Below are positions 14,105 to 41,990 of a stretch of 64,000 bases of DNA, in pieces. The DNA is from Methylobacter sp. GTDB taxonomy: Bacteria; Pseudomonadota; Gammaproteobacteria; Methylococcales; Methylomonadaceae. The DNA lies in contig NZ_JAUXVR010000005.1 of the NCBI RefSeq assembly GCF_030680395.1, positions 62,001 through 126,000 on the forward strand, in the 5' to 3' direction. Under the pieces are notes generated by a model. The model was not told where the DNA came from, made no database searches, and saw only the letters and a list, made by a program, of their open reading frames with translations. The position numbers were made by a program, and so were the translations under genes. Position 1 is the stretch's first letter; every line of letters begins with the position of its first letter.

Positions 14105-16909
14105 ATGCAACTTCAGCTTGAAGACCTGCTTTATCAAAACAATGCCATACAAAGCGCGGTTCAGCTTTTCAAAGGCCAAAGCAGGAATGTCTCTGAGCGT
14201 ACGCTGCTATCCCAATCCAATGTCATCGACATCGCCCCGAACCAGTGTCTGCTCAGCCCGGAGCTGCTGCACAAAAATAAAATTAGCATCCTGCAACAAA
14301 ACGCCCTTGCAGAAAACGAGGCCACCTTAAGCGAAGAGCCACAAATCTGCATCGAAATGGAAACCGGTACCGGAAAAACACTGGTTTATATCCGCACCTT
14401 GTACGAACTTTATAAAGAATACGGTTACACCAAGTTCATCATCCTCGTGCCATCCATCGCGGTAAAAGAAGGCATCATCAACACGCTGGAAAGTTTTGCC
14501 GGGCAACTTAAAGACCATTATCAGCATAACATCCACTGGTTCGAATACGACAGCAAGCGCCTGAATCAACTCAAACACTTTATCAACGACGATCAGCCGT
14601 AAATCATGCTGACCACCGTTCAGGCCTTCACCGCAGAAGACCGCATACTCAATCAACCGGGCCGGGATGACAGCATCGGCGGTTTTAGCTATCTTGAAGC
14701 CCTGGGACAAACCCGCCCCATCATTATCATGGACGAACCGCAAGAAGGCATGGACACCGACTTGGCGCAAAAACGCCTGAACACTTTGACGCCTCTTTTT
14801 GTGTTTCGCTATTCGGCCACCCACAAACGCATCATCAACCGGCTTTATCGGCTGACGCCTTACGATGCTTACGCCGAAGGTCTGGTGAAGAAAATAGAAG
14901 TGCTCTCGGTTGCGGAAATCAACGACGAAGCCCTGCTGAAAATAGAGTTGCAGGAGATTCAGGCGCAAGCAGGGCAAGACCCAAAAGCCAAACTCAGCCT
15001 CTGGCATAACCTCAAAACGGGCTTTACGCTTAAACCCAGCAAATGGCTTAAAGTCGGCGATAATTTGGGCGCGATAACCAACAACATCAGCTACCAGGAC
15101 TTTACCGTAGAGCGCATCTACAAGGGCTTGCGGGATAAAAACTGGAAAATCCATTTCAGCAACGGCGTAGAAATAGAACAAAACCAGCGCCAGGGCGACA
15201 TAAGCGGCATATTCCGTCAACAACTGTACTGGCTAATTGACAGCCATTTTAACAAACAGCAAAAACTCAGCCCGCGCGGCATCAAATGCCTGGCGCTTAT
15301 TTTTATCGACAAAGTCGATAATTACATCGGTGCCGAGCCGCTGATAAAACAACTGTTTGCCGAAGAATATCAGCGCGTCCACCAGGAGCGCACCGGCAAG
15401 CAAGCCAGTCCCGAACAAATTACAGCCGTACAAGGCTATTATTTTGCGCGTACCGGCAAGGGCGAATTTACCGACAACGAAAGCGCCATGCTCAAGAACC
15501 GGGAAATCTACGATTTGATCCTCAAAGACAAGCAACAACTGTTGTCGCTGGACAATCCGGTCGAATTCATCTTCTCGCATTCCGCGCTGGGCGTCGGCTG
15601 GGACAACCCCAACATTTTCAACATTGCCACGCTTAACCAGACCTACAGCGAAATCAAAAAACGCCAGGAAATAGGCCGGGGCCTGCGTATCTGCGTTAAC
15701 CAGCAAGGCCAGCGCATTTACGATCCGGCCAGCGACGACGCCGACGATGAGATCAATGTGCTAACCCTGATCCCCAATGAAACTTACGAAACCTTCGCCT
15801 TGCAATATCAGGCGCAATTGGCGGACGAATTCGGCATAGACGGCAAAAAACCGCCCCTGCGTAAAAACAGCAAAGGCAACAAGAAGCAAAACAAACTGAC
15901 CCGGCATGAAACGCGGTTTAACAGCGACAGTTTCCGCAACTTCTGGAAGACCTTGGCAAGAAAAACCCAATACACGGTTAGCTTTGATGAAGCGGAAATC
16001 ATCAACCGCGGCATACAGGAACTGGGCAAAATAAAAATAGCCTCTTACGAAGCCGAAATACGCCTGACCCGCATCAAGGAGCTGCAAGACATCCAAGGCA
16101 AAGGCGAGGAAATCGGTCGGGAAATCGCCCAGCTTAAAGCCAGTTACTCGGCGGCGGATATTGTCGAACAAATCAGCGAAAACACCTCGCTCAGCTACAG
16201 CATGGTATTCAGGATCATCAAGGCGTTGGACAACAAAGCCCAAATACTGCGCAATCCGCCGCTATTTATCCAACAAGCCAGTAAAGCGCTCAAACGCATT
16301 GAACTGGCGGAAATGCTGCGCACCCTCAGTTATCATGAAACTGGCGACAGCTTTCCATTGGAACTGTTCAAAGAGGTAATTCATACCTACTCGCCGGTTG
16401 AACCAACGCCCAACAAAGGCATTTACGATTATGCCATTTGCGATGCGGATTCCCGGCCGGAACATGAATTTGCCCATAATGCCGACAACGACCCGAAAGT
16501 CGTCTGCCTGCTGAAACTGCCTGAGTTCTACAAAATACCCACGCCCATTGGCGAATACTACCGACCGGATTTTGGATTAGTGGTAAAACAGCGCAGCCTT
16601 AAAAACAGCGATGCCGATGGCCGCGCTCGTTCCTTACGAGCTAGCGGCATACACACCATCCCTGGCGATAAAGAACTGTATTTTGTCATCGAGACCAAAA
16701 GCACCAATGACATCAACGACGATAAAGCACTCACCGAACACGAGCGCAGTAAAATCCTATGTGCGGTTAAACATTTTGCGGCCTTGGGCATACACGCCGA
16801 AATTGGCGGTGACATACGCTACGAAGTCAAGGAAACGCCGGGAGATTATCAACAAACCAATGCCACTTTTCGAGCGCCGGTTAAAGATTATGGCGATATA
16901 AAGTTATAA
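14105..16909 (+). pseudogene. res: type III restriction enzyme Res subunit, split by in-frame TAA at 14600-14602
   Basis: ORFs 14105..14602 and 14606..16909 are in the same frame; METGTGKTL, IIMDEPQEGMD, RQEIGRGLRI; nuclease PDF...ETK; no mod gene nearby. Confidence 0.88.
16620..16671 (+). repeat. palindromic element family A, copy inside res
   Basis: GCCGCGCTCGTTCCTTACGAGCTAGCGGC + ATACACACCATCCCTGGCGATAA. Confidence 0.9.
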
Positions 16910-17027
16910 TTCACCCAACTTGGGAACGCCGAGCCCCAGCTCGGCAAGAACTGTTTATTGCTTTTTAATTATCGAAGTTATCACTCCCACGGTTGCCGTG
17001 GAAACGATACAATATATTTATAAGCTT

Positions 17028-17080
17028 TGTAGGCCGGAATAAGCCGGTTCGAGCGGCTGCGAGAACCGGCGTTTCCGGCA
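17028..17080 (+). repeat. REP-like repeat, shared with 11139..11193
   Basis: TGTAGGCCGGAATAAGCCGGTTCGAGCGGCTGCGAGAACCGGCGTTTCCGGCA. Confidence 0.6.
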
Positions 17081-17111
17081 AACACCACTAGAACACCTTG
17101 AGGTATACAAA

Positions 17112-17327
17112 ATGAACACAGCAGAAAAAGTTTATCAAGATGTAAAAGCGCTTCCAGAACCTTTAGCTCAAGAGGTTTTGCAATTCGTAGAGTTTTTAAA
17201 ATTCAAGCAACTCAACTTGGAAAAAACACCCAACGAAACCACCATAAAAGCAATGCAAGCCGCAGAACGTGGTGAATATGAAGCGGTCAGTTTGGATGAC
17301 CTGAAAAAGCAATGGAGCGATGCGTGA
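17112..17327 (+). CDS. antitoxin (DUF2281-like N-terminus, RelB-like C-terminus)
   Basis: 71 aa; VYQDVKALPEPLAQEVLQFVEFLK and MQAAERGEYEAVSLDDL; overlaps the toxin gene. Confidence 0.8.
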   Translation: MNTAEKVYQDVKALPEPLAQEVLQFVEFLKFKQLNLEKTPNETTIKAMQAAERGEYEAVSLDDLKKQWSDA

Positions 17328-17593
17328 GAGAAGTTGTACAAACTTCCCAGTTCAAACAGGACTTAAAGAAAATAAAGCATTCCGGTCGCTATAAAATCGA
17401 TGATTTGTTAGCGGTTGTTGAGTCCTTGGCTTCTAATAAACCGCTTCCCGTGAAAAATCAAGCGCATGATTTAACGGGTCATTGGCAAACTTATAAGGAA
17501 TGCCACATAAAACCAGACTGGTTACTTATTTATCATCTGCCAGACGATAAATTGATTTTAGTCAGGACAGGTTCGCATAGCGAGTTATTTTAG
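17324..17593 (+). CDS. YafQ-like (RelE/ParE superfamily) mRNA interferase toxin
   Basis: FKQDLKKIKHSGRY, HDLTGHWQTYKECHIKPDWLLIYH, LVRTGSHSELF; GTGA start/stop overlap. Confidence 0.88.
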   Translation: MREVVQTSQFKQDLKKIKHSGRYKIDDLLAVVESLASNKPLPVKNQAHDLTGHWQTYKECHIKPDWLLIYHLPDDKLILVRTGSHSELF

Positions 17594-17685
17594 GAATCGA
17601 CGCATCATTTATGCGATTGTTAATGTACGCCTTTTAGCCTCCCCTACCAACAAACGATAATCTTTTACAAAAATAGAGCCCATCC

Positions 17686-20532
17686 ATGGAAAAAACATAC
17701 GCCCCGCATTCAATTGAACAACGCTGGTATCAAACCTGGGAAGAAAAAGGCTATTTTGCGGCCAAGTCGGAGGGTGAATCCTATTGCATCATGATTCCGC
17801 CGCCCAATGTTACCGGCAGCTTGCACATGGGCCATGCGTTTCAGGACACCATCATGGATGCGCTTACCCGCTACCACAGGATGAAAGGCTACAGCACCTT
17901 GTGGCAGCCGGGCACCGATCATGCGGGTATTGCCACGCAAATGGTGGTAGAACGTTTGTGCAATGCGGAAGGAAAAACCCGTCATGATTATGGCCGGGAA
18001 AAATTTATCGAAAAAATCTGGGAATGGAAGGAAGAATCCGGCGGCACGATTACCCGCCAGTTGCGGCGCATGGGCTCTTCGCTGGACTGGAAAAAGGAGC
18101 GCTTCACGATGGATGACGGCATGTCCGATGCGGTGCAGGAAGTGTTCATACGCTTATATGAAGAGGGCCTGATTTATCGCGGCAAGCGCTTGGTCAATTG
18201 GGATCCTGTGCTGCATACCGCTGTTTCCGATCTGGAAGTATTGTCGGAAGAAGAAAACGGTTCCATGTGGCATTTGCGTTATCCGCTGTCGAACGGCCAT
18301 GGGCATTTGATTGTTGCAACTACCCGTCCTGAAACCATGCTGGGCGATGCCGCAGTCGCGATTCATCCCAACGATGAGCGCTATAAACATTTGCTCGGTG
18401 AATTTGTGGAACTGCCGCTAACGGGCCGCCGCATTCCGATTATTGCCGATGAGTATGTCGATCCTGAATTCGGTACGGGCTGCGTCAAAATCACGCCAGC
18501 CCATGATTTTAACGATTACGAAGTCTGGACGCGCCACCGCCATACTTCGGTTATTCAGGATTTGCCGCATGGCGGCTTGATTAATATTTTAACCGTCGAC
18601 GCGAGCATCTGTACCGATGAGTTAGTCCCCGTTCAATATCAAGGCCTTGACCGCTTTGAAGCGCGCAAACAGATTGTCGCCGATCTCGATGCGCAAGGTT
18701 TATTGGAAAAAATCGCCGATCACAAGTTGATGGTGCCGCGCGGCGACCGCACCAACAGCGTTATCGAACCGCTGTTGACCGACCAGTGGTATGTCAAGGT
18801 CGCGCCGTTGGCGGAACCTGCGATTGCCGCTGTTGAAAACGGCGACATCAAGTTTGTCCCCGACAACTGGAAAAACACTTATTTCGACTGGATGCGCAAT
18901 ATTCAGGACTGGTGTATCTCACGGCAAATCTGGTGGGGTCACCGCATCCCGGCCTGGTATGACGAGCTGGGCAATATTTACGTCGGGAGCTCTGAGCAGG
19001 ACATCCGGGAAAAACACAACCTGCCCGCCGGCTATGCGCTTAAGCAGGATGAAGATGTGCTGGATACCTGGTTTTCTTCCGCCTTATGGCCTTTTTCCAC
19101 ACTGGGTTGGCCGGAAAACACTGACGAACTGGCCAAGCATTATCCGACCAGCGTACTGGTGACCGGCTTTGACATCATTTTCTTCTGGGTGGCGAGGATG
19201 ATTATGATGGGACTGAAATTCCAGGGCGCCGTGCCGTTTAAGGAAGTCTACATCCACGGCTTGGTCCGCGATGCGGAAGGACAAAAGATGTCCAAATCCA
19301 AAGGCAATGTGCTCGACCCGATTGATATCATCGACGGCATAGAACTGGAAGCTTTGGTTGCAAAACGTATTTCCGGCATGATGCAGCCGCATTTGGCAAA
19401 GAAAATCGAGCAGGATACGCGCAAACATTTCCCGGACGGCATTCAGTCTTACGGCACCGATGCCTTGCGTTTTACCTTTGCTTCATTAGCGTCCACCGGT
19501 CGCGATATCCGCTTTGACCTTGCCCGCACCGAAGGTTACCGCAATTTCTGCAACAAACTATGGAACGCGGCGCGTTTCGTGCTGATGAATACAGAGGAAC
19601 AGGATAACGGTTTATCCGACGCACCTTGTAAATACAGCCAAGTGGATCGCTGGATTACGTCCCGTCTGCATCAGGTAACGGCTGTGACCTCGACCGCCAT
19701 TGATAATTACCGTTTTGACCTGGCGGCGCAAGCCATTTACGAATTCACCTGGAATGAATACTGCGATTGGTATCTGGAGCTGGCAAAAATATCCCTGCAA
19801 TCGAGTGATAAGGCATTGCAACGCGGTACGCGCAAAACCCTGCTGACAGTTCTGGAGTCGATTTTACGTTTGGCGCATCCGATCATGCCGGTTATTACCG
19901 AAGAGATCTGGCAACGCGTTGCACCTCTAGCCGGTATTATCGCTGGGGATGGTGTGTATGCCGCAGGCCAGCCGGGAGCTGGCGCGGCGCAGGCAAATAC
20001 CATCATGTTGCAGCCTTATCCGGTAGCAGATGAAGCGCGAATCGATAGTAAAGCCATCGCCGAAACCAACTGGGTAATGAACTTTATCCTGGGTGTACGC
20101 CGTATTCGCGGCGAAATGAATATTTCTCCGGGCAAACCGCTGCCGGTGTTACTGCAAAACGGCTCGTATACTGACCAACAAAGCCTGGACAACAACCTGA
20201 TTTATTTACGAAAAATGGCTAAGCTGGAATCGATAATCTGGTTAAACAGTACTGAAGTTGCACCGGAATCAGCAATGGCGCTGGTTGGCGAGATGCAAAT
20301 CCTGATTCCAATGGCGGGCTTAATCGACAAGGAAGCGGAACTGATACGACTGGAAAAAGAGATACAAAAAGTCAATAACGACCTGCCCAGAGTCGAAGGC
20401 AAATTAAATAACCCGGCATTTGTCGATAAAGCGCCTCACGAAGTTATTGATAAAGAAAAAGCCAAACTGGCTGATTTACGTTCAATGCTTAACAAGCTCG
20501 AAGAACAGCAACGTAAAATACGGGCACTGTAA
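17686..20532 (+). CDS. valS: valyl-tRNA synthetase with an apparent in-frame insertion
   Basis: [27 protein letters not shown]. Confidence 0.97.
19937..19988 (-). repeat. palindromic element family A, copy inside valS (antisense to the gene)
   Basis: Minus strand GCCGCGCCAGCTCCCGGCTGGCCTGCGGC + ATACACACCATCCCCAGCGATAA. Confidence 0.9.
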
Positions 20533-20542
20533 GAAAGACCGA

Positions 20543-20600
20543 CAAAAGGCGCAAGGTAAAGGTAAGCGGCCCCTTTAGCCTTGTACCTTGTACCTTTTTA
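20543..20600. repeat. AAGGY purine/pyrimidine hairpin repeat between valS and pilB
   Basis: AAAAGGCGCAAGGTAAAGGT...AGCCTTGTACCTTGTACCTTTTT. Confidence 0.8.
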
Positions 20601-20639
20601 ATCTATATTTATTTAAACAACTGACAAAGTAATCATCCT

Positions 20640-22352
20640 ATGAATACCGCATCAACGAATTTACAATTTAGTGGCCTTACACGGTGCTTGATTGAAAAAG
20701 GCTTGCTAACTGAGAGTGATGCGCAAATTCATAGCCAGGAAGCACAAAAAAAACAAGTCCCGTTAATCCACTATCTTGTTACCAATAAACTGATTAGCAG
20801 CAAAGTCTTGGCATCTCAAGCCTCACAAGAATTTGGCATGCCTTTTTTTGACCTGGATGCAATTGACTTCCGTAGACTCCCTATCAATCTGGTCAGTGAA
20901 AAGCTCATCCGAAAATGCCATGCGCTGCCCCTGTTCGCCAGAGGCAAAACACTGTTTGTCGCGGTATCAGACCCGACCGACTTTCGCGCTCTGGATGACA
21001 TCAAGTTTCACAGCCGCCTTAACCCCGAAGCCATTCTGGTTGAAGAAGACAAACTTATCAAAGCCATTGAAGCCTCCTTAGAGGCCGCCGATACATCAAT
21101 GACTGATATGCTTGATGAGGATCTGGACAACCTGGAAATCACCGGCGGCGAAGAAGATACCACTAAAGCCGATATTAACTCGGATATTGATGACGCCCCC
21201 ATTGTTCGTTACGTCAACAAAATACTGCTGGACTCCATAAAGCAAGGGGTCTCCGATATACACATGGAGCCCTACGAAAAAATCTTCCGTATCCGCTATA
21301 GATCGGATGGCATACTCCGTCAGGTTGCCACGCCACCCGCCAGCATCGCTGGCAGACTTGTCTCCCGCATCAAGGTCATGTCTAAAATGGATATTGCTGA
21401 ACGCAGGGTTCCGCAAGACGGCCGTATCAAAATGACCTTATCCAAAAACCGTGCGATTGATTTTCGGGTAAACACCTGCCCTACCTTGTTCGGTGAAAAG
21501 GTCGTAATGCGTATTTTGGACCCTACCAGTGCTCAGCTGGGTATCGAAAAACTGGGTTTTGAGCCTGAACAGCAACGAATATTTCTTGAGGCTATTAACA
21601 AACCCTACGGCTTAGTGCTGGTAACGGGACCAACAGGTAGCGGTAAAACGGTTACGCTCTACACGGGGCTAAACATCCTCAACACCATGGAGCGCAACAT
21701 TTCCACGGCCGAAGACCCTGTGGAAATTACCGTAGAGGGCATCAATCAGGTCAACATGAATCCCAAAGCCGGCCTGACCTTCGCCAGTGCTTTACGCGCC
21801 TTTTTGCGGCAAGATCCTGACATTATCATGGTGGGTGAGATTCGTGATTTGGAAACCGCCGAAATCGCCGTCAAAGCCGCACAAACAGGCCATTTGGTGC
21901 TATCGACCTTACATACTAACGATGCGCCGCAAACCTTAAACCGCCTCCTGCAAATGGGCATCCCCGCCTTCAATATCGTTGCAGCGGTCAATTTAATTAT
22001 GGCGCAACGTTTAGGCCGACGGCTATGTGAACATTGCAAAGTCCCCGCCGACTTTCCCGATAAAGTCCTCCTTGCTGCCGGTTTTAAACAAGAAGAGTTG
22101 CACGACCTTAAAATATTCAGTGCGGTAGGCTGCGAGTACTGTACCAATGGTTACAAGGGTCGAGTCGGTGTTTATCAAGTCCTGACGCTCACTGACAAAA
22201 TGCGCTCACTGATACTAAACGGGGGGAATACCGATCAGCTGGCAGAGTGCGCTCTGGCCGAAGGTTTTAATGATTTACGCAGGTCAGGGTTAAACAAAGT
22301 GCGGATGGGCATGACCAGCTTGGAAGAAATTGATCGCATCACCAAGGAATAA
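20640..22352 (+). CDS. pilB: type IV pilus assembly ATPase PilB
   Basis: GPTGSGKTVTLYTGL, IMVGEIRDLETAEIA. Confidence 0.96.
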   Translation: MNTASTNLQFSGLTRCLIEKGLLTESDAQIHSQEAQKKQVPLIHYLVTNKLISSKVLASQASQEFGMPFFDLDAIDFRRLPINLVSEKLIRKCHALPLFARGKTLFVAVSDPTDFRALDDIKFHSRLNPEAILVEEDKLIKAIEASLEAADTSMTDMLDEDLDNLEITGGEEDTTKADINSDIDDAPIVRYVNKILLDSIKQGVSDIHMEPYEKIFRIRYRSDGILRQVATPPASIAGRLVSRIKVMSKMDIAERRVPQDGRIKMTLSKNRAIDFRVNTCPTLFGEKVVMRILDPTSAQLGIEKLGFEPEQQRIFLEAINKPYGLVLVTGPTGSGKTVTLYTGLNILNTMERNISTAEDPVEITVEGINQVNMNPKAGLTFASALRAFLRQDPDIIMVGEIRDLETAEIAVKAAQTGHLVLSTLHTNDAPQTLNRLLQMGIPAFNIVAAVNLIMAQRLGRRLCEHCKVPADFPDKVLLAAGFKQEELHDLKIFSAVGCEYCTNGYKGRVGVYQVLTLTDKMRSLILNGGNTDQLAECALAEGFNDLRRSGLNKVRMGMTSLEEIDRITKE

Positions 22353-22354
22353 AT

Positions 22355-23575
22355 ATGGCAGAGCAAACTGAACAAATAGATTTCGTCTGGGCGGGAACCG
22401 ATAAAAATAAAAAGAAAGCCGGAGGAATCATCTCTGCAAAAAGCGAAATCATTGCAAAAACTGAACTGCGGCGGCAGGGATATCGCGTTATTAAATTCAA
22501 GAAAAAACCCAAGCCGCTATTCACTCAAAAAATCCAGGCTATCACGCCGGGCGACATAGCCGTTTTTTCCAGGCAATTAGCCACCATGCTTAAAGCGGGC
22601 GTACCGTTGGTTCAGTCATTCGATATTGTCGGCAAAGGCCACGATAATCCAAGCATGGAGGCTCTGCTCATGGGCATCAAAACTGATATTGAAGGCGGCG
22701 ACACCTTAGCCCAAGCGCTTAACAAAAGACCGCTGTATTTTGATGAATTAACTTGTAACTTGGTTGAAGCCGGTGAACAGGCAGGGGTATTAGAAACACT
22801 GCTGGATAAAATCGCCACCTATAAAGAAAAAACCGAGTCGATGAAGAAAAAGATCAAAAAGGCTCTGACCTATCCGATCGCGGTAATAGTCGTCGCCTTC
22901 ATCGTCACCACCATCCTCTTGATATTTGTGGTACCGGTATTTTCCGACATGTTCAAAAGCTTCGGCGCCGACCTGCCGGCTTTCACTAAAATGGTTGTCG
23001 CCATGTCTGAGTGGATGCAGGCATGGTGGTATATTGTTGTCGGCATTGTTGTCGGCATCGTTTACACATTTGGCTATTTTAAAAAACGCTCAAAGAAATT
23101 CAATCACTTCCTTGATAAAACCCTGCTAAAAATACCGGTAGTCGGCCTGATTTTACATAAGTCTGCAATCGCACGATTTGCCAGAACCTTGGCAACCATG
23201 TCGGCAGCCGGGGTACCTTTGGTAGAGGCACTGGAGTCAGTTTCCGGAGCCTGCGGCAATATTGTCTACGCCGAAGCCGTTTTAAAAATGCGCGATGAGG
23301 TGGCAACCGGCCAACGGCTTCAATTTGCCATGCAGCAGGCAAATCTTTGGCCCAATATGGTGATACAGATGGTGGCTATCGGAGAGGAATCAGGCTCTAT
23401 GGACTCTATGCTGTTAAAAGTTGCCGATTTTTTTGATGAGGAAGTCGATAATCTTGTCGATAATTTGAGCAGTTTAATGGAACCCTTCATCATGGTTGTT
23501 TTAGGCATTTTGGTCGGCGGCCTGATTGTCGCAATGTATTTACCGATATTTAAAATGGGTGCAGCTATTAAGTAA
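22355..23575 (+). CDS. pilC: type IV pilus inner membrane protein PilC
   Basis: FSRQLATMLKAGVPLVQSFDIV; two T2SSF domains. Confidence 0.96.
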   Translation: MAEQTEQIDFVWAGTDKNKKKAGGIISAKSEIIAKTELRRQGYRVIKFKKKPKPLFTQKIQAITPGDIAVFSRQLATMLKAGVPLVQSFDIVGKGHDNPSMEALLMGIKTDIEGGDTLAQALNKRPLYFDELTCNLVEAGEQAGVLETLLDKIATYKEKTESMKKKIKKALTYPIAVIVVAFIVTTILLIFVVPVFSDMFKSFGADLPAFTKMVVAMSEWMQAWWYIVVGIVVGIVYTFGYFKKRSKKFNHFLDKTLLKIPVVGLILHKSAIARFARTLATMSAAGVPLVEALESVSGACGNIVYAEAVLKMRDEVATGQRLQFAMQQANLWPNMVIQMVAIGEESGSMDSMLLKVADFFDEEVDNLVDNLSSLMEPFIMVVLGILVGGLIVAMYLPIFKMGAAIK

Positions 23576-23683
23576 CGTTGTACGCTACTGGTTAGACACG
23601 ACTGCTTATGCAGGAATAATTACTCTCAAATACCGTATTCATCAACGCTCCCGCCATGGAGCGCTCACTTCATCAAAAAACAG

Positions 23684-24589
23684 ATGCAACAGCTTAGTAT
23701 GATTTTAAATATACCTGTCCTATTTTCGGCTCTGGCCGGTGTTATCGGCTTGCTTGTCGGCAGTTTTCTCAATGTTGTTATCTACAGATTACCGATCATG
23801 ATGCAACGAGGATGGCGTAGGGAATGCCTGGAGTATCTGCAAATCGAGCCGGAACCTGTGCAGTCCGGCAACGACATGAATACAGCAGCGGTTGCCGAGG
23901 AACCCTTCAACCTAGTTTTCCCTTTATCCCGCTGTCCCGGCTGCAATACGCCCATCAAGCCTTACCAGAACATTCCAGTCATCAGCTACCTTTTTTTAAG
24001 AGGTAAATGTGCAAAATGCAACTGTCGCATTTCAATGCGTTATCCGATAGTAGAAGCTTTCACCGCACTGGCCTCAATCATAGTGGCTTGGCATTTTGGC
24101 TACACACCTCAAGCTGTTTTTGCTCTGATACTGACCTGGTCGCTGATTGCGTTAATTTTTATTGATATTGACCATCAGTTACTACCTGACTCCATCACCC
24201 TTCCCTTACTTTGGCTGGGGATGTGTCTAAGCCTGTTTAATGTATTTGCCGATGCTCACGCCAGCATCATCGGCGCAGTCGCCGGCTATATTGCTCTTTG
24301 GGCTATCTTTCATCTGTTTAAACTGGCAACAGGCAAAGAAGGCATGGGCTATGGCGACTTCAAATTGCTGGCTTTATTCGGTGCCTGGCTCGGCTGGCAA
24401 TACCTACCGATTATTATTTTATTATCATCGCTGGTTGGTGCGGTTATTGGCGTAAGCATGATCATTTTTGTCAAACACGATCATAACGTCCCTATCCCTT
24501 TCGGTCCCTATCTAGCTGCCGCGGGATGGATCGCATTATTATGGGGCAATGACCTCAACCAACTCTATTTAACCTCCGTAGGCCTATAA
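23684..24589 (+). CDS. pilD: prepilin peptidase/N-methyltransferase PilD
   Basis: GSFLNVVIYRLP, CPGC...C-C zinc motif, EGMGYGDFKLLA. Confidence 0.95.
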   Translation: MQQLSMILNIPVLFSALAGVIGLLVGSFLNVVIYRLPIMMQRGWRRECLEYLQIEPEPVQSGNDMNTAAVAEEPFNLVFPLSRCPGCNTPIKPYQNIPVISYLFLRGKCAKCNCRISMRYPIVEAFTALASIIVAWHFGYTPQAVFALILTWSLIALIFIDIDHQLLPDSITLPLLWLGMCLSLFNVFADAHASIIGAVAGYIALWAIFHLFKLATGKEGMGYGDFKLLALFGAWLGWQYLPIIILLSSLVGAVIGVSMIIFVKHDHNVPIPFGPYLAAAGWIALLWGNDLNQLYLTSVGL

Positions 24590-24592
24590 GGC

Positions 24593-25195: not shown

Positions 25196-25196
25196 C

Positions 25197-29346: not shown

Positions 29347-29362
29347 AGTCAAAGGAGAAAAA

Positions 29363-29776: not shown

Positions 29777-29815
29777 GTTAAGCTACCTGCAATTTTTATT
29801 TATCTTGGAGAATTT

Positions 29816-30487: not shown

Positions 30488-30586
30488 CGAACAGTCATGC
30501 TTGATAAATTCATTCTTTGCAACCGCCCGGCAAAGACTGCCTTTACCGGGACTTGAGCCCTAATCAGCTCTGATCTTGCGGACGAT

Positions 30587-31885: not shown

Positions 31886-32018
31886 GGTTTTTCTCAGTTT
31901 TGAAACAGGGGCTGTAGCGTCATCAGAAGGCCGGCTAAATTGCGAAGTTCACAGTTTAGCCGGCCAATTGAGTGTGATATTTGCTTATACAATAACAAAT
32001 TCCGAAAAATCTTTCATT

Positions 32019-32055
32019 CTCGGCAATTGCTCCTGCATCCACGCAGTCATATCAG
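32019..32055 (+). repeat. family B partial copy lacking the centre
   Basis: CTCGGCAATTGCTCCTGCATCCACGCAGTCA. Confidence 0.65.
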
Positions 32056-32074
32056 TGACAACATAAATGCGCTA

Positions 32075-32725
32075 TTAAACCGAAATCACTCTATCTATAG
32101 TTTGTTTTGCCAGTTCAGTCACTCTAGCCCAGTTTTTTGATTTTATCACATCCGCAGGCACCAACCATGATCCGCCAACGCAGGCAACATTGCTTAACTG
32201 TAAATAACTGTTGTAGTTTTCCGGAGAAATGCCGCCGGTCGGGCAAAAAGTCACATTGGGAATAGGCCCTGCAATAGATTTCAGCATCGGTATGCCGCCT
32301 GCCGCTTCGGCCGGAAAGAACTTGAAATGATCCAACCCATACTCCATGCCCAACATCAGCTCCGACAGCGTTGATATACCTGGAATCAATGCTATATTTC
32401 CAGTCTTGGCAGCCGCTAAAAGCTTCGGTGTTAATCCGGGACTAATGGCGAAAACAGCGCCGGCATCTTCCGCCGCTTTTAATTGCTCGGGCGTAGTAAT
32501 AGTGCCTGCACCGACAATGGCGTCTTTAACTTCCTGGCTGATAAGTCTGATCGCATCAAGTGCGATGGGAGTACGCAGTGTAATTTCCAACACTTTAATG
32601 CCGCCTGCGACCAAGGCCTGCGCCAATGGAACGGCGTCTTCCAAGTTCTGGATGACCATTACAGGCATTACCGGACCGGCGTTTAAAACTTCATCAGGTT
32701 GAATTTTCCAATTATTTTTAATCAT
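32075..32725 (-). CDS. eda: KDPG/KHG aldolase
   Basis: [32 protein letters not shown]. Confidence 0.95.
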
Positions 32726-32752
32726 TAGTTTTTACCAATTTTTTTATAGTTA

Positions 32753-34573
32753 TTAGTCGGCGACAAACAGGTTGGTAGCGCCAGTTTCAGCAGAAGACGC
32801 ACCCAGACGGAAAGCGCCGAACAATTCGCGGCCCATGCCGAAATGATGGCCCTTGGCGCTATTTGCTGCCGGAATGCGGGCATTAAATTCATCCGTATCT
32901 ACCTGCACATTGACCTCGCCGGTTTGGGTGTTCAAGTGAATAATGTCACCGGTGCGCACTTTCGCCAACGGCCCGCCCTCTTCACATTCAGGACACATGT
33001 GGATAGCTGAGGGTACTTTACCCGAAGCGCCGGACATCCGTCCATCCGTCACCAGCGCGACCTTAAAGCCTTTATCCTGCAATACACCCAGAGGCGGCGT
33101 CAATTTGTGCAATTCAGGCATACCGTTGGATTTCGGCCCCTGGAAGCGGAGCACCACAATAACATCTTTCTCCATTTCGCCGCGTCTGAAGGCCGCAACC
33201 ACATCGTCCTGATCGTCAAAGACCATCGCAGGCGCCTCAACGATCTGGTGTTTTTCCGCTACCGCAGAAACTTTGGATACGCCGCGTCCCAAATTGCCGT
33301 GCATCACATGCAAGCCGCCACCGGCTGCAAAAGGCTTGGCGACAGTACTGATAACGTCCGCGTCCAAAGAAGCTTCAGGGCAAGGTTCCCAGATTAACTT
33401 ACCGTCAACCAGCTTGGGCTCCTGATGATAATGACTCATGCCGCGCTCGTCTGCTATTGTCAGAATATCCTCATGCAAAAGACCGTTTTTTAACAGTTCG
33501 GCAATCAATACGCCCATGCCGCCGGCGGCCTGGAAGTGATTGATGTCCGCTTGACCGTTCGGATAAATACGAGTTAACAACGGTACCGCTCTGGACAGCT
33601 TATCAAAATCATCCCAATTGATAATGATACCCGCTGCACGCGCAATGGCGACCAGATGAATCGTGTGATTGGTGGATCCGCCCGTTGCCAATAAGCCGAC
33701 AATGGCGTTCACAATCGCTTTTTCATCGATCGCATGTCCAATCGGACGGAAATCATTGCCCAGCGCAGTAAACTTTAAAACCTGTCTGGCTGCGGCTTTA
33801 GTCAGTTCATCGCGCAATGGCGTGTAAGGATTGATAAATGAACTGCCCGGCAGATGCAGCCCCATAATCTCAACCATCATCTGGTTACTGTTGGCGGTGC
33901 CGTAGAACGTACAGGTACCGGCACTGTGATAGGACGCAGACTCGGACTCCAGCAGTTCTTTACGGCCGATTTTACCCTCGGCGTAAAGCTGGCGGATACG
34001 CACTTTTTCCTTATTGGGCAAACCGCTGGGCATCGGTCCGGCCGGTACGAACACGGCGGGCAAATGACCGAAACTCAACGCGCCGATCAACAATCCCGGC
34101 ACAATCTTGTCGCAGACGCCCAAGTACAGCGCGCCGTCAAACATGTTGTGACTTAAGCCCACGGCCGTCGCCATCGCAATCACATCGCGACTGAACAACG
34201 ACAGCTCCATGCCGGGGCGGCCTTGCGTGACCCCATCGCACATAGCCGGTACGCCGCCGGCGAATTGGGCAACGCCGCCGGCTTCCTTAATGGCGGCCTT
34301 GATCAACGACGGCGCATCTTTGTACGGTTCATGCGCCGACAACATATCGTTATAAGAAGAGATAATGGCGATGTTGGCTTTTTTATGTCCGGTTAAATCG
34401 CTTTTTTCACCGGCTCCGCAAGCGGCAAACGCATGGGCCAAATTGCCGCAAGCCAGCTCGCCGCGGTGCGGCTCTTTCTTCGCTGCCGCATCAACTCGCG
34501 CCAGATAGGCTGAGCGGGTTTCGCGGCTGCGTTCAATAATTTCGTTAGTCACTTTTTCTAATACAGTATGCAT
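32753..34573 (-). CDS. edd: phosphogluconate dehydratase
   Basis: [53 protein letters not shown]. Confidence 0.97.
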
Positions 34574-34607
34574 AGTTGTTCCTTTTCAGTTAATTGATGC
34601 GCATCGT

Positions 34608-34678
34608 AGGGGCCGGCCTTGTGCCTGCCCTTTTGGCCTATACCCTATCAGCGGCAACCACAAGGGATTGCCTCTACA
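34608..34678. repeat. degenerate palindromic repeat abutting the zwf stop
   Basis: GTAGGGGCCGGCC...GGCAACCACAAGGGATTGCCTCTAC. Confidence 0.55.
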
Positions 34679-36148
34679 TTATTCTTCCCAAGCTCTTTCG
34701 TCCCTGGCAATTAATTCGTCCGCCTCAGCAGGCCCCCAGGTACCGGCCGGGTACGGTTTTGGCGCGGCATTGGTATGCGCCCAGGCATCCTGTATCGAAT
34801 CGATCCAGGTCCAGGCTTGTTCGATTTCCTCGCGGCTCAGAAACAGCGTGGGATTGCCGCGCATCGCTTCAAGCACCAATTTCTCATACCCGCCGAAAAT
34901 CTTGCTGTTTTTAAAGGTGTCGGAAAAACTCAAATCCAACTTGGTTTTTTGCAGCTTAATGTTTTCGTCAATGCCCGGTATTTTGTTGAGCACCTGAATT
35001 TCCACGCCTTCATTCGGCTGCAAATGAATGATGAGCTTATTCGACGGCAGATCCTCGAAGCTTTCCTTAAAGATATTGTGCGGCAGTTGCTTGAAATTAA
35101 CGACGATTTCAGTACGTTTATATTTCATGCGTTTTCCGGTGCGTAAGTAAAACGGCACGCCGGCCCAGCGCCAGTTATCAATAGCCACTTTCACGGCGAC
35201 AAAGCTTTCCGTAGTGCTCTCAGTATTAGCGCCTTCTTCTTCAAGATAGCCCGGCACCTGCTTACCCTTGAGCTCTCCCGCCGTGTACAACCCACGAACG
35301 GTTTTTTGTGCGACATTTTCTCTAGTAATGGGCCGTAGCGAAGAAAGAACCTTTATTTTCTCATTGTGTATACTGTGTGCCTCCAGATTGACCGGCGGTT
35401 CCATCGCCACAAAGGTCAGAATCTGCAACAGGTGATTTTGCAGCATGTCACGCAGCTGGCCGGTTTTATCGAAATAATCCCAGCGCCCTTCAATACCAAC
35501 TTCTTCAGCGACGGTAATCTGAATATGATCGATGGTGTTGTGATTCCAGTTGGTAGTAAAAATGGAATTGGCAAAACGCAACGCCAATAAATTAAGTACT
35601 GTTTCCTTGCCCAGATAATGATCGATACGATAGACCTGTTTTTCGCTGAACACCTCGGCAACGGCATCGTTAATTTCTTTTGACGATTTAAGATCGTGGC
35701 CTATCGGCTTTTCCATCACCATGCGCGATTCTTCATTCAAAACCCCGCACTTGGCCAGTCCCTGACAAATATTGGTAAACAAGAAAGGAGCGACGGCAAA
35801 ATAATTCACCATAACCCTGGATTGCCCGTTAATGGCGGTATTCAACAGCTGGTATTGATCCAGTTGAGTTAAATCTATTTTCAGGTAGGAAAACCGTGCC
35901 GAAAACCGCGCCCATATTTGTTCATCAAGGGTCTCATTTAAAAACTCTTGCAAACTGTTATGAATAGTCCCGACAAATCCTGAACTATCGCTCTCGTGTT
36001 GATCTATGCCGATGATGCGGGTATCGACTTCGATCAAATTGGCTTTTTCAAGTCGATACAGGGAAATAAGCAACTTGCGGCGGGATAAATCACCCAAAGC
36101 GCCAAAGATAACCAGGTCACAAGGTTTAAATGTTGTTTTTTCGTTCAT
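34679..36148 (-). CDS. zwf: glucose-6-phosphate 1-dehydrogenase
   Basis: FGALGDLSRRKLL, RIDHYLGKETV. Confidence 0.97.
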   Translation of the reverse strand: MNEKTTFKPCDLVIFGALGDLSRRKLLISLYRLEKANLIEVDTRIIGIDQHESDSSGFVGTIHNSLQEFLNETLDEQIWARFSARFSYLKIDLTQLDQYQLLNTAINGQSRVMVNYFAVAPFLFTNICQGLAKCGVLNEESRMVMEKPIGHDLKSSKEINDAVAEVFSEKQVYRIDHYLGKETVLNLLALRFANSIFTTNWNHNTIDHIQITVAEEVGIEGRWDYFDKTGQLRDMLQNHLLQILTFVAMEPPVNLEAHSIHNEKIKVLSSLRPITRENVAQKTVRGLYTAGELKGKQVPGYLEEEGANTESTTESFVAVKVAIDNWRWAGVPFYLRTGKRMKYKRTEIVVNFKQLPHNIFKESFEDLPSNKLIIHLQPNEGVEIQVLNKIPGIDENIKLQKTKLDLSFSDTFKNSKIFGGYEKLVLEAMRGNPTLFLSREEIEQAWTWIDSIQDAWAHTNAAPKPYPAGTWGPAEADELIARDERAWEE

Positions 36149-36585
36149 AGATGCGTTGTTGAATAAATAGTTATGCCGACATCAGTCCGGCACTTTATAG
36201 GCGGAAAACTTAGGCTTATTATCGCAGAATTTGCTTCAGGATGCAGTTCTGGATACAGCCTTAGCGCTGAGCCTGTTACTTTAGGTTTAAAGAAGGCTAA
36301 ACAGTTTGATATGCATATATCGTATCGAATCGATATTTAGTTGACAGCTTTCTCAAGCTTCTTTTATAGTATTGATCCGCTACTATCACAAAAAGAGAAT
36401 ATTTTAAGCGTCGCACGACTGCCGACATGCATCACAACCTGGCGGTCGAAATTGCCGATCGCTCAAAAATGTCAAGGTGAAGTAGTTTATCAGGAGAAAG
36501 CAACCCCAACATTGATGAAGCCATAATTTTCATATCAACCTTGGCGCATCCATTGATGATTTAAACCAACAAGAGGTATAAAAAA

Positions 36586-36774
36586 ATGAGCAAAGAAGCC
36601 CAAATAGAAGAAGTACAAATAAAAGACAAATTCTGGCTGTACGTTAGCGGCACAATAATTACTTTATTGATCGTCATTGCAATGGTCAAACAAAGCGAGA
36701 ATGAAAAATTTGCACCCATCAAACAGCAGTTGGAAGAGGAGACGGCCCTCATGAATATCCGTGTATTGAACTGA
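36586..36774 (+). CDS. small single-TM protein, unknown
   Basis: 62 aa, preceded by AAGAGGTATAAAAAA (SD-like). Confidence 0.5.
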   Translation: MSKEAQIEEVQIKDKFWLYVSGTIITLLIVIAMVKQSENEKFAPIKQQLEEETALMNIRVLN

Positions 36775-36910
36775 ACGGCCATTATGCTCATGCCAAGGCG
36801 TTATGCCACATCGGGCTTTGATGGGTTCGCGCACTTGCCTATGGGTAAGCCGCCGCTTTGTCAACCTTAGCGTGATCATGCACCACTTAAAATAATCATC
36901 AGGAGAAAAT

Positions 36911-37273
36911 ATGAAACTTAATTTGATATGCCTTTGGGCGGCGTTAACTTTGTTTTCCGGAACAACGTTCGCGGCAGAATATATATACCGGGACCTCATG
37001 GCTAACACGCTGCCCTCGGCGGGGTGTGAAGTAGAATCAGAAGCCATGGCGACCGCGTCAAAACCCTACAACATCACCCGATACAGCAAAACATTTTGTC
37101 AGTCGCAAGGTTACGGCTGGCATGTCGAAAAAGTGAAGGATGAAGGCAAGGCTGCCTGCACCCCCTGCACTGGCGCTAATCAAGGTAAAAGCCAGTGCCA
37201 TCTGGAAGATGTAGTCGTTACCTGCAAACGCATCAAGCCCGGCTCGGTCGGCATGTTGCCTGGAAAAAGTTAA
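36911..37273 (+). CDS. secreted Cys-rich protein, unknown
   Basis: Signal peptide, 6 Cys in the mature part; SD-like AGGAGA. Confidence 0.6.
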   Translation: MKLNLICLWAALTLFSGTTFAAEYIYRDLMANTLPSAGCEVESEAMATASKPYNITRYSKTFCQSQGYGWHVEKVKDEGKAACTPCTGANQGKSQCHLEDVVVTCKRIKPGSVGMLPGKS

Positions 37274-37423
37274 TTGCAATCGCGTGAGCAAGAGATACAC
37301 CAACCTGCTTGCTCACGCTCATCCTGACTTAGTCATATTCATTCGGTACACCGGGATGACAGAGCATGACGCTCATGGGTTCCAGGGAGGTAGATACACC
37401 CTCATCAGCCTATAAACTTAAAG

Positions 37424-38320
37424 CTAAGCCCACACTCTCCGCCTGCTCCAGCACCCCAGTTGAATGGCCTCTTCCCGTTTGGTGGGCGGGTATTTGTATT
37501 TGCGCAATATCCCCTTCACCATCAATCTTAGGTTGAAACGGACACCTTCACGCACAGCCCAATCCACGCTGCTGGCGCTTTTGCGTAATTTTTCCGCCAG
37601 TTCATGGGCGATTTTCTTGACCATTGTGCCGTCATCTTCAAACAGCACAAAAAAGCGCAGAAAATCCAGCAGATAAGCCGGAGCCAACACACCACGCACC
37701 AGCGTTTCCAGCTCATTGAACTGGCCGAGCGGATCAAGTGCCACACCGTCAATAGTACGCCACGCCATAAAACGCTCTTTGTCGGTAGAAAGCGAGCCCA
37801 TCAGCGCTTCGGTCGTCCGAAATCACCAACACTTTGTTGTACTGGAATACGTCCGGGATTTGCTCTTTGTAAGTATCGATCTGGTCGTAGGCTTTCCAAA
37901 CATCAGCAGTGAGGTCGACAGGGTTCTTCAGCTCCAGCAGCACCAGGCAGGCCGTTGACGAATAGGATAATGTCGGGGCGGCGGGTATGTTTGGGGCCCT
38001 TGATCGAGAACTGATTGACCGCCAGCCATTCATTGGCAGCGGCATCTGCAAAGTCGATCAGCCGCCAGTAGCACCGGCGTATCCGGATTCAGAACCTGCT
38101 GTAAGGCATCTTCACGAGCGATCAGAGGAACAAGCGAATTAAGCTGATTAATGGCGTTGCGCAAGCGTTTGACCAAAACCACCTGAATGTAATTGCTGCG
38201 CTCGGGCGTGTTACCGTCTACGGCAATGTCCGGGCCATAGATAGAGGTATAACCGACATCGGCCAGCCAGCTCAGGGTTTCTTGTTCCAGTTGATCTTCG
38301 GTTATCCGTTTACTTCCCAA
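37424..38320 (-). pseudogene. hsdR: type I restriction subunit HsdR remnant (frameshifts plus internal deletions)
   Basis: Three ORFs carry consecutive HsdR segments: [90 protein letters not shown] joined to DWAVREGVRFNLRLMVK. Confidence 0.88.
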
Positions 38321-39264
38321 TGCCCACCGTTGGCTGGCCCGATACGTGACAGACGGTGTTCGACTTGCAGTTTTTTGAGGTTACGTTCAATAGATCGCTC
38401 ACTTACACCAATCGAAACCGCTAGTTCCGGGATCGTTACTGAAGTATTTTCTCGAATCAACGCAAGAATTTTCCCCGACGTTTTTACCGACCTTTTCCCC
38501 GACGTTTTTACCAGCACGTCTGTCATCGCATCAAGCAAGGCTTGCAGCATAAACTCGATGAAAGGCGTTGAATCCGCCAGACTGTCTGCATCTGCCAAGG
38601 CTTGGTAATAAGCCGTTTGCCTAACCCTGATGACCGATTCAACTGGCAAATAAGCCAACAGCGGTTGCCACTGGCTCAATATCAGCGTTTGCCATAAGCG
38701 ACCCATGCGGCCATTACCATCGGCGAACGGGTGGATAAACTCAAATTCGTAATGGAACACGCAGCTGGCTATCAACGGGTGTACCGGAGCCGATGCCAGC
38801 CAGGATAACAAATCAGCCATCAGCGCAGCAACCCGACTGGCGGGCGGGGCCACGTGTATCAAGTCCTGAGCATTGTAGATACCTACGCCACCGGTGCGAA
38901 AGCACCCCGCGTCATCGACCAGTCCAGCCATCAATAAACCTTGTGCTGTTAATAAATCGGCACAGGAATACGCTTGCCAATTCGGCAGTTGTTCATAAGC
39001 GGCAAAGGCGTTGCGCACCTCCTGGATTTCACGCGGCAAGCCTAAAACCTGCTTGCCTTCCAGTACGGCGGTCACTTGCTCGATGCTCAGGGTGTTATTT
39101 TCGATAGCCAGCGAGGCCTGAATGGTACGGATGCGATTGTTACGGCGCAACTACGGCGACAGAGCGTTATCACCGGCCACCTCCCAACGGGTTAACAGTT
39201 CGACAATTTCTGCGGCCCGCTGCAATATCAGTGGCGTGATGGTGTAAGGCGGTTGTTAGCTCAT
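38302..39264 (-). pseudogene. Fic/AMPylase-like protein with two in-frame stops near the N-terminus
   Basis: HPFADGNGRMGR motif; the same frame continues upstream through TAG (39151-39153) and TAA (39256-39258) to ATG at 39264. Confidence 0.82.
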
Positions 39265-39582
39265 GGGCCAGTACCTTCAAATTGGCGACGATGTTTAATT
39301 CTCCAAGTGTGGTCACACTTTAAGCATTGCCGCTGTGCACCACCTATTTCTAAACAGCAACCACCTATTGCTACCTCGCCTCGTTCTGCTGTGGCCCAGA
39401 GTGTTTTCTTGATGCCTTCGATCATTGCGTTTTTACTTAAAAAATTTGACTTGGTTTGTAATGCCGCATTTATGACCGGCAAAATCGGCGCTAATGCTCC
39501 GCACTTAATGCGACTTGTTGCGTTGACAATGATTTATAATACAGCAATTGACCCCATCAAGCCCGCACCCCTATATTACAAA

Positions 39583-39873
39583 ATGGCAGACTCGAAAATT
39601 TATCTGAATGTACCTTTTGCCCAGAAGGATGAGGCAAAAGCGCTTGGAGCAAGGTGGGATGCAATCCAAAAGAAATGGTTTGTCCCGGCAGATAAGGACA
39701 TTATCCTTTTTGCCCGATGGCAAGCTGAATCCGGTACTGTGGAATCGCCTGGATCGAAAACTTCACCCGCCAAAGTCAGTTCTTCATCCAGGAAGACCGC
39801 CGCCGGTGTCAAAACCCATGCAACGGTTAAAGATTTTATTGCCTATAACGGCGATACACCGCCATGGCATTAA
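39583..39873 (+). CDS. DUF5710-like small protein
   Basis: IYLNVPFAQKDEAKALGARWDAIQKKWFVPA. Confidence 0.75.
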   Translation: MADSKIYLNVPFAQKDEAKALGARWDAIQKKWFVPADKDIILFARWQAESGTVESPGSKTSPAKVSSSSRKTAAGVKTHATVKDFIAYNGDTPPWH

Positions 39874-39885
39874 CGTTTGCTTCAG

Positions 39886-40923
39886 TTAATCATCCTCATT
39901 CGGGATTTGCCCCCTGAATTCTTCCGACAGCAGCATTTGCCCTCCGGTGACAACCAGCTGTTCACCGGCATTGATGCCGCTGCCGACAAAGTAACCGCCG
40001 TTCGTTGCCGAATACTGATCTATAGTGCGGCGAGTAAATTGTTCGGCATCGGTTTTAATGTAAACAAAAGCCTGATCCATGTACCAAACTAAAGCAGACT
40101 TCGGGATAATTACGCCGGACCGGTTTTCACTTTGTTCAGGTATCCACGCCGCAACGCGCATGCCGGTTCTGATAGGGTTATCACCAGGAATGGTGTGTAC
40201 GCCGCAAGACTGCCGGGAGCAGTTGCGGCGACCGTCGGTTTGGAAAAAATAGCTTTCGCCTTGTGCGGTGTTATCTGTTTGCGGAGCCGCTGAAATCAGC
40301 TCGGCTTTAGTAGCCGCACTGCGGTTGCCCGATGCTTCGACATAAATACTCTGAATCTCGTTGGCCAGCTGTTTATTAACCGGTAAGGTAATTTGCAACA
40401 GCGTTTTCTGTCCGGATAAGAAACCGTTCAACTGCTCGGAGTCGGTAGATAACGCCCATTCAGTCAGCTTTTTACCCCAGTTGAGCCGGGCTTCATCAAT
40501 GATAGCCTTGCCTTGAAAGCCACTGGCATCAACCAGGGCTTTATCGGTTTGCCATTGCGCTTGCTGAACTTGCAAGTTACGTTTTGATGTCGCGCCGTCA
40601 CTATACAAGTCTTGCTGGCGCTTGATGTTCTGCTCAGCCTGCCTGAACCTTGCCGTAGCGCTGCTGCGCTCAGTGAGCGCGACCGAATACCGGTGTCGTA
40701 ACTCGATCAGCGGCTGTATATTGACCGCTTTTCCATAAGCCGTGAATTCAGGATGATCGCTGATAGAGGTAAGCGTTATTGTCTGCAAGCCCGATATCGA
40801 CTGGGCTTTAGCGGCCAGGAAAATAGTTCCCTGCCCTGCGTTGGCGACCGGCTTATCGTCATCATCCGCGATAACGGGAGCGACACTGAGCATAAAAAAG
40901 CAGGCTATTAAAAGAGCATTCAT
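39886..40923 (-). CDS. HlyD/RND periplasmic adaptor-like protein with an apparent in-frame insertion
   Basis: Signal peptide; GVIIPKSALVWYMDQAFVYIKTDAEQFTRR; coiled-coil region. Confidence 0.82.
   Translation of the reverse strand: MNALLIACFFMLSVAPVIADDDDKPVANAGQGTIFLAAKAQSISGLQTITLTSISDHPEFTAYGKAVNIQPLIELRHRYSVALTERSSATARFRQAEQNIKRQQDLYSDGATSKRNLQVQQAQWQTDKALVDASGFQGKAIIDEARLNWGKKLTEWALSTDSEQLNGFLSGQKTLLQITLPVNKQLANEIQSIYVEASGNRSAATKAELISAAPQTDNTAQGESYFFQTDGRRNCSRQSCGVHTIPGDNPIRTGMRVAAWIPEQSENRSGVIIPKSALVWYMDQAFVYIKTDAEQFTRRTIDQYSATNGGYFVGSGINAGEQLVVTGGQMLLSEEFRGQIPNEDD
40178..40229 (-). repeat. palindromic element family A, copy inside the HlyD-like gene
   Basis: Minus strand GCCGCAACTGCTCCCGGCAGTCTTGCGGC + GTACACACCATTCCTGGTGATAA. 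Confidence 0.9.
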
Positions 40924-41021
40924 GTGGACAGGAAAGTGAGTATATAGGTTTGTTCATGTTATAAGATTTCCATTCTTAAATGCATTTTTTTGTTGTTTTT
41001 AAAAAATTGCACGTTATCCTT

Positions 41022-41070
41022 CGACTGTATGAATACAGGAAGTAGAGCAATGCATGGAGCAGTTGCCGAT
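41022..41070 (-). repeat. family B element, upstream of gcvH
   Basis: CGACTGTATGAATACAGGAAGTAGAGCAATGCATGGAGCAGTTGCCGAT; near-identical to 59117..59164. Confidence 0.9.
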
Positions 41071-41107
41071 AAAATAAAGTAACTAACTATAATATTTGGA
41101 GATTATC

Positions 41108-41491
41108 ATGAGCGATGTACCGGATAACTTAAAGTACGCAAAAACCCACGAATGGGTGCAAATGGAAGACGATAATATCATTCGTGTCGGTATAACTGAT
41201 TTTGCGCAGGAAGAATTAGGCGATTTGGTTTATATTGAGCTTCCTGAGCTGGGCCGCAAAGTAACAGCGCAAGAGCAATGCGCCGTAGTCGAATCGGTTA
41301 AAACCGCATCCGATTTGTTCAGCCCGGTTTCCGGAGAAATAGTCGCCGTCAACGAAGCCTTGGCAGATGAACCCGAGCAGGTCAATGATGACGCTTATGG
41401 AGCTTGGCTGTTTTGTATAAAAGCGGATGACCTGTCTGAACTGGATGCATTAATGAGTGCGGATGCTTATCAGCAAATGATCGAGCAATAA
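41108..41491 (+). CDS. gcvH: glycine cleavage system H protein
   Basis: KTHEWVQ, ESVKTASDLFSPVSGEIV lipoyl site. Confidence 0.96.
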   Translation: MSDVPDNLKYAKTHEWVQMEDDNIIRVGITDFAQEELGDLVYIELPELGRKVTAQEQCAVVESVKTASDLFSPVSGEIVAVNEALADEPEQVNDDAYGAWLFCIKADDLSELDALMSADAYQQMIEQ

Positions 41492-41575
41492 TCCGGATTT
41501 ATCCTGCTTGTAACGAAACTGACACATATCTGTGTAATATTTACTTTTTCAATAACAGATAATCGTAAACAAATA

Positions 41576-41935
41576 ATGGCCAATCAAAATGCAAAAGGCT
41601 TTAAACGTCTGATGAATGCCTGCATCTTCTCTGTTGCCGGTTTTAAAGCAACCTGGACACATGAAGAAGCATTCAGACAGGAAGTCATCCTGTTTGTGGT
41701 AACGACCCCTCTGGCAATCTGGCTGGGGCAAAGCAATATCGAAAAACTACTGTTGATCGGCAGTATCGTTTTAGTCATGCTGGTCGAATTATTAAATTCA
41801 GCGGTTGAGGCTGTAGTCGATAGAGTGGGGCTTGAGCATCATGAATTATCGGGTCGCGCCAAAGATATTGGCTCCGCTGCTGTTATGATGTCACTGGCTT
41901 GGGCTGCGGTAACCTGGGCATTAATTTTACTTTAG
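41576..41935 (+). CDS. dgkA: diacylglycerol kinase
   Basis: KATWTHEEAFRQE, VELLNSAVEAVVDRVGLEHHELSGRAKD. Confidence 0.95.
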   Translation: MANQNAKGFKRLMNACIFSVAGFKATWTHEEAFRQEVILFVVTTPLAIWLGQSNIEKLLLIGSIVLVMLVELLNSAVEAVVDRVGLEHHELSGRAKDIGSAAVMMSLAWAAVTWALILL

Positions 41936-41990
41936 CCGCAACTGCTCCCGGCAGTCTTGCGGCATATCCACACACCATCCCTGGCAATAA
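41935..41990 (+). repeat. palindromic element family A, intergenic copy
   Basis: GCCGCAACTGCTCCCGGCAGTCTTGCGGC + ATATCCACACACCATCCCTGGCAATAA. Confidence 0.9.

Follow-up and report, generated by a model that had tools for sequence, protein, structure and literature searches.

Family A, a 51-nt two-hairpin repeat of Methylobacter with copies in frame within protein genes

Introduction

A 64,000-nt stretch of the genome of Methylobacter sp. (assembly GCF_030680395.1, contig NZ_JAUXVR010000005.1, positions 62,001–126,000, forward strand; hereafter the window) contains four copies of a short palindromic sequence, designated here family A. Three copies are in frame within genes: those of a type III restriction endonuclease (res), valine–tRNA ligase (valS) and a HlyD-like protein. 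One copy is intergenic. Methylobacter is a type I methanotroph. Are these copies a mobile element that adds codons to proteins, and if so, how is the unit built, where does it insert and what moves it? A sequence-only reading had proposed a protein-invading palindromic element, parallel to the Rickettsia palindromic elements (RPEs) and without a named family, and the tests run support it. The four copies are very probably members of a mobile, non-autonomous, gene-invading family whose insertions appear in genes as 17 additional codons.

Results

Occurrence of the family

All four copies are present where the sequence-only reading had placed them; shuffling predicts 0.00 matches to their tail. 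The valS copy is in the opposite orientation, as claimed there, and the HlyD-like copy is also on the minus strand, so that two of the four, not one, are on this strand. A covariance model (R1) trained on 28 copies from the window's own genome matched this 4.36-Mb assembly 54 times at E<0.1, exactly four times in the window portion of contig C12. The expectation of further copies in relatives was also borne out: 22 of 22 further Methylobacter genomes contained matches, from at least 3 to at least 89 per genome (minimum values, from 94 scored candidates per genome). A low-copy clade comprises G004, G014, G016 and G017. Few matches occur in most remaining genera of the same family, and none was found in 24 genomes from other families of the order. 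Among named genomes, exact matching of a 28-mer gave 78 stretches, almost all from Methylobacter, with a few from Methylovulum, Methyloglobulus and other Methylococcales. No family A match was found in phages or plasmids.

Three candidates were rejected. Four IMG/VR matches, considered as viral carriage, resemble chance similarity to coding sequence. A supposed fifth copy near window position 3521 reads as ordinary coding sequence of a CmoB-like methyltransferase (LKALHPWRKGPYNLFG). The copy cluster on contig C2 (23.9–29.8 kb), considered as a source locus, is a transposase-free pyrC-pyrB-pyrR-ruvX-algH-tonB-gshB region, as judged by eye.

Structure of the unit

The unit measures 51 nt in 209 of 215 copies and has the consensus CGCCGCGCCTGCTCCCGGCAGGCTTGCGGCATACACACCATCCCTGGCGAT, preceded by T and followed by AA. 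It is composed of two hairpins, H1 then H2. H1 pairs over 11 bp, carries a 2-nt bulge and closes with a TCCNN loop. Its stems had been said to vary with pairing kept, and this is real covariation: 89.6% of cells are paired, 8 of 11 pairs show two-sided changes, and such changes occupy 38 cells vs 12.9 in shuffles; slid controls are paired at 24–46%. The earlier description of a hairpin plus conserved tail is correct for the hairpin, not for an unstructured tail, which contains H2. This second, small hairpin (C-N-CCA-TCCC-TGG-N-G) has a TCCN loop. Its pair at unit positions 37/48 is an A.C mismatch in 176 of 209 copies, and departures from it mostly restore pairing (TA 10, GC 9, AT 7, CG 2). 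The inverted match of the unit ends is 4 bp only (CGCC/GGCG). Five of the six reading frames are free of stops. Head-to-tail arrays of 2–4 units hold the 51-nt period.

Copy 4, located immediately upstream of the start of a PfkB-family kinase gene, carries the additional TCCA reported earlier. This insertion is lineage-specific: in a second species (L135), the copy at this intergenic site measures 51 nt. The insertion had been taken as a sign that selection maintains the frame in genes. Copies inside and outside genes alike almost always measure 51 nt, so frame selection is not readable from length; it is chiefly the 51-nt length of the unit that preserves the frame.

Filled and empty alleles

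Of the genes checked, eight have element-free orthologues: res, valS, hlyD, waaF, waaC, DUF58, slt and capD. As anticipated, they fix the element boundaries, and they correct the proposed 52-nt core to 51 nt. Intact insertions add 17 codons in frame, or 34 or 68 in tandem arrays; no target duplication is seen at the filled/empty junctions of the checked sites. For res, the orthologue is empty in G008 and filled in G009; the difference of 54 nt comprises the 51-nt element and a separate adjacent 3-nt change. Among 20 relatives, valS is filled in G021, G001, G007, G006 and G009, contains a remnant in G010 and is element-free in the rest. Filled and empty alleles both exist for ntrCD, in a variable linker; the junctions of comEC are too mosaic for a clean definition of the empty site. 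Arrays account for gains of 102 nt in ntrCD, waaF and slt and of 204 nt in ntrCD of G008. Copies decay by losses in multiples of three, and in-frame deletions are present inside the hlyD copies of G002, G008 and G015. Occupancy of the checked sites is patchy across the genus and its species tree (the DUF58 column of the occupancy table gives 13 rather than 17 owing to a short flank).

A different palindrome, GGCGACCGGCCGGTCGCC..TACAA (ending CTACAA), is found inside element A in comEC (L295, L301, L302) and waaC (L242). In one case a palindrome of this type replaces the main hairpin of the element, with the frame kept.

The single valS match in the window's genome means that the interrupted enzyme is presumably the working one. 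Against the solved 1gax chain, the insert falls in a variable, poorly aligned stretch; this position is compatible with a loop, without proving one.

Target

About 60 loci with independent flanks give the rule C-N-N-N^A-W. C makes up 80% of position −4 (1.02 bits) and T 14%; A makes up 98% of +1, 84% of +2 (with T at 16%) and 60% of +3. CNNN^AA is present at all four window copies. Empty alleles read CTTC^AA (valS), CGGT^AA (DUF58), CGGC^AA (waaF), CTTC^AT (slt) and CGAT^AA (res). The C at −4 occurs in most empty alleles and is thus part of the site, not of the element. Target duplication of GAT was ruled out, the 3′ GAT being constant regardless of the left flank. Because the unit ends in CGAT and AA follows, a completed insertion re-creates the target, which would fit the exact 51-nt head-to-tail arrays.

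Insertion in genes and use of frames

Loci were scored as genic when a frame was open for at least 50 codons on both sides. By this measure 39 of 63 independent loci (62%) are genic; random positions drawn from the same DNA give 63%. At a cut-off of 100 codons the values are 44% and 42%. Family A shows no avoidance of genes. Host genes encode valine–tRNA ligase, heptosyltransferases I and II, RapA, ComEC, an SLT transglycosylase, an NtrCD-type ABC ATPase and a CapD-like polysaccharide biosynthesis protein.

The 39 in-gene copies are read in frames −0 (IARDGVYA, 15), +0 (GIHTIPGD, 10), +2 (AAYTPSLAI, 7), −2 (SPGMVCMPQ, 5) and −1 and +1 (a single copy each). No fewer than four frames are in use within otherwise open genes. 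The hypothesis that the five open frames are used equally is rejected only modestly (chi-square ~14.6, 4 d.f.), a bias that suggests selection against certain peptides. The peptides are probably carried as neutral passengers by loops and linkers that tolerate them, with flexible versions favoured. They would be retained or lost through drift plus purifying selection.

Features of the window and sister families

Three sister families, B, C and the G032 family, share with family A the TCC-starting loops of H1 and H2 (TCCN) and differ from it in stems and spacers; examples of H2 are CTGCA-TCCA-TGCAG and CGCCA-TCCT-TGGCG. The family B tail matches at 52 sites in the genome, many of them within TTCGTG-type palindromes, with a tandem period of 48 in places. 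In the same genome and test, 7 of 32 family B loci are in open frames vs 58% of random positions, with one locus counted twice and B often lying within another palindrome.

Table 1. Positions of family A copies, their host genes and sister families. Coordinates refer to the window unless a locus (L) is named.
Feature	Position	Strand	Description
Copy 1	16619..16669	+	51 nt, in frame in type III restriction endonuclease (res), encodes GRARSLRASGIHTIPGD
H1 of copy 1	16620..16648	+	11 bp, 2-nt bulge, 5-nt TCCTT loop; DNA fold z = −4.2
H2 of copy 1	16654..16667	+	CACCA-TCCC-TGGCG; one A.C mismatch in most cases
Target motif C-N-N-N left of copy 1	16615..16618	+	CGAT; AA at 16670-16671
Copy 2	19939..19989	-	51 nt, in frame on the antisense strand of valS; motif 19990-19993
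Copy 3	40180..40230	-	51 nt, in frame in HlyD-like gene, encodes RRNCSRQSCGVHTIPGD; motif 40231-40234
Copy 4	41934..41988	+	55 nt (51 + TCCA), intergenic, R1 61.5 bits; motif 41930-41933
res open reading frame with copy 1	14606..16909	+	RE_endonuc domain
valS (valine–tRNA ligase) with copy 2	17686..20532	+	sole valS match in genome
RND efflux periplasmic adaptor (HlyD-like) with copy 3	39886..40923	-	
Family B (two hairpins)	41023-41074; 47745-47806; 59112-59163	- (41023-41074)	GGCAACTGCTCCATGCATTGCTCTACTTCCTGTATCCATGCAGTC
Family C	L170 795-846; L431 2015-2066		CTGGAGCYGCTCCCGGCRGCTCCARCACTTCCGCCATCCATGGCAGTC; near two unrelated Y1 genes, inside outer palindrome
G032 family	L357-L382		another genus of the bacterial family; high-copy divergent relative GGCAGATTTTTGCTCCATGCAAAATCTGCATTCACGCCATCCTTGGCG, often nested in larger inverted-repeat element

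Another palindrome of the window (3555–3601, minus strand), consisting of GGGCGAATTGATTCGCCC plus GGCGACTAAAGTCGGC, is in frame in the CmoB-like methyltransferase gene; a sister of it lies near 4631.

Discussion

Relation to known systems

The ends of IS200/IS605 elements and the REPINs (from repetitive extragenic palindromic sequences, REPs) mobilised by REP-associated tyrosine transposases (RAYTs) have subterminal hairpins, strand-specific insertion and a short conserved target, without duplication or terminal inverted repeats. Like non-autonomous IS200/IS605 elements, family A inserts 3′ of a short conserved sequence, in a fixed strand and without duplication. Unlike them, it has a CNNN^AW target with one strongly fixed left base and, among the loci examined, no autonomous TnpA (Y1) copy with its ends.

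RPEs are palindromic and occur in frame in conserved protein genes, 19 such cases having been described, as well as between genes; a guanylate kinase interrupted by an RPE was shown to be translated and active (PMC2229807). Family A resembles them in lying in frame within the open reading frames of conserved proteins. RPEs are stem-loops of 105–146 bp with 12-bp terminal inverted repeats, from intracellular alphaproteobacteria (PMC2229807), whereas family A has 51 nt, a 4-bp inverted match, two TCC-loop hairpins, a CNNN^AW target, head-to-tail arrays and free-living gammaproteobacterial hosts.

Intragenic GTAG/CGTC REPs are likewise short hairpins, some of them in frame in genes and some in dimers (Di Nocera et al. 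2013, PMC3733652), and the loops of the CGTC type have 4–5 nt; family A shares with them the short hairpin repeat, the in-frame genic copies and the loop size. They carry a GTAG or CGTC tag at one end of a single 5–13 bp stem, lie mostly between genes and pair up chiefly as head-to-head dimers (PMC3733652). Family A differs in having no tag (consensus TCGCCGC...GCGGCATACAC), two hairpins, head-to-tail order and no avoidance of genes, and, unlike GTAG REPs, no association with a RAYT gene. Family A behaves like RPEs and intragenic REPs, but these differences in unit size, tags and architecture set it apart from both. No description of family A was found within the searchable literature; protein-invading repeats as a kind, namely RPEs and intragenic REPs, are already known.

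Mobilisation

The fixed strand, the absence of duplication, the two TCC-loop hairpins and the short target, on one side, suggest that a Y1/HUH enzyme moves the unit by single-strand transposition. A transposase of the RAYT or IS200 kind is the most likely type of mover, an assignment made tentatively and at slightly less than even confidence. Such an enzyme, acting in trans, would recognise the hairpins as single-stranded DNA and join the unit 3′ of CNNN; arrays would arise by insertion beside an older copy.

A RAYT/IS200 partner was considered and rejected at the two Y1 loci that lay near R1-like matches: both weak matches are family C, inserted near two unrelated Y1 genes.

Alternative explanations

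The strongest alternative, still unlikely, is that family A consists of classical intergenic REPs or bacterial interspersed mosaic elements moved by a RAYT, with incidental copies in genes. The short, strand-specific hairpins without target duplication agree with it, as do the Y1 transposases in all genomes and the related two-hairpin families (B, C and the G032 family) with TCC loops. The foot of the stem, however, carries no GTAG or CGTC tag, arrays are head-to-tail, no RAYT examined has flanking copies, and the genic fraction equals chance while family B is depleted in open frames.

Miniature inverted-repeat transposable elements, spread by a DDE transposase through terminal inverted repeats, are improbable. 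The tiny unit and its CGCC/GGCG ends would suit them, but the inverted match does not exceed 4 bp, no checked site is duplicated, and each end obeys its own rule: CNNN outside the unit at the left end, GAT^AW at the right end.

It is more doubtful still that the hairpins are RNA regulators (riboswitch, terminator or processing site) retained for their function. Pairing is conserved in H1 and H2 as this would require, but insertion in genes occurs at random frequency and in both orientations. Rfam 15 at its gathering score gave no match over the copies within the window; the only window match above that score is a thiamine pyrophosphate (TPP) riboswitch elsewhere (49834–49954, minus strand).

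Ancestral 17-residue segments deleted in some species, which patchy presence and the in-frame deletions in hlyD copies might suggest, are refuted with near certainty because a single DNA sequence encodes different peptides in different, unrelated proteins, in both orientations and in no fewer than four frames, and lies between genes too, and because early-branching, low-copy species are element-free at most checked sites.

Interpretation

The main interpretation, held as very probable, is that of a mobile, gene-invading family whose insertions add 17 codons. A bolder reading, held below even confidence, is that family A is an element suited to life within genes, moved by an enzyme of novel role. 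A unit whose length is a multiple of three, with five frames free of stops and a loose target, would be able to spread through coding DNA at chance frequency. Several points weigh against the main interpretation. The random control for the genic fraction scores open frames, not curated genes, and the apparent gain of peptides by host proteins is read from DNA. Patchy occupancy could equally stem from precise loss or from exchange of alleles between species. The window res gene may be damaged: an in-frame stop (14600–14602) divides an open reading frame at 14105–14602 from the res frame, and the G009 orthologue is open across 939 codons. A RAYT-like transposase, for which the sequence-only reading had proposed a search, was looked for at Y1 loci, and none is consistently linked: one of ten Y1_Tnp loci in the genome lies near an R1-like match, which is weak; the 29 Y1 loci across the genus add one further weak match, beside an unrelated Y1 gene; no Y1 gene with family A ends was found among the loci examined; and copy number (minimum counts) is not significantly related to Y1 gene count (rho 0.30, p 0.16).

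Significance

If the bolder reading is true, family A keeps supplying the core enzymes of a free-living genus with 17-residue linker insertions, arrays and length variants. Its inserts explain odd 17-residue blocks in Methylobacter proteins, such as those with GIHTIPGD and IARDGVYAASLPGAGAA. Protein-invading repeats are best known from Rickettsia, where experiments are hard. Family A is a fast-evolving case in free-living bacteria, some of them cultured, with the same genes available as filled, empty, doubled and decayed alleles across more than 20 species. The frequency with which selfish DNA enters proteins harmlessly, the peptides that are tolerated and the movement of a 51-nt unit thereby become directly testable.

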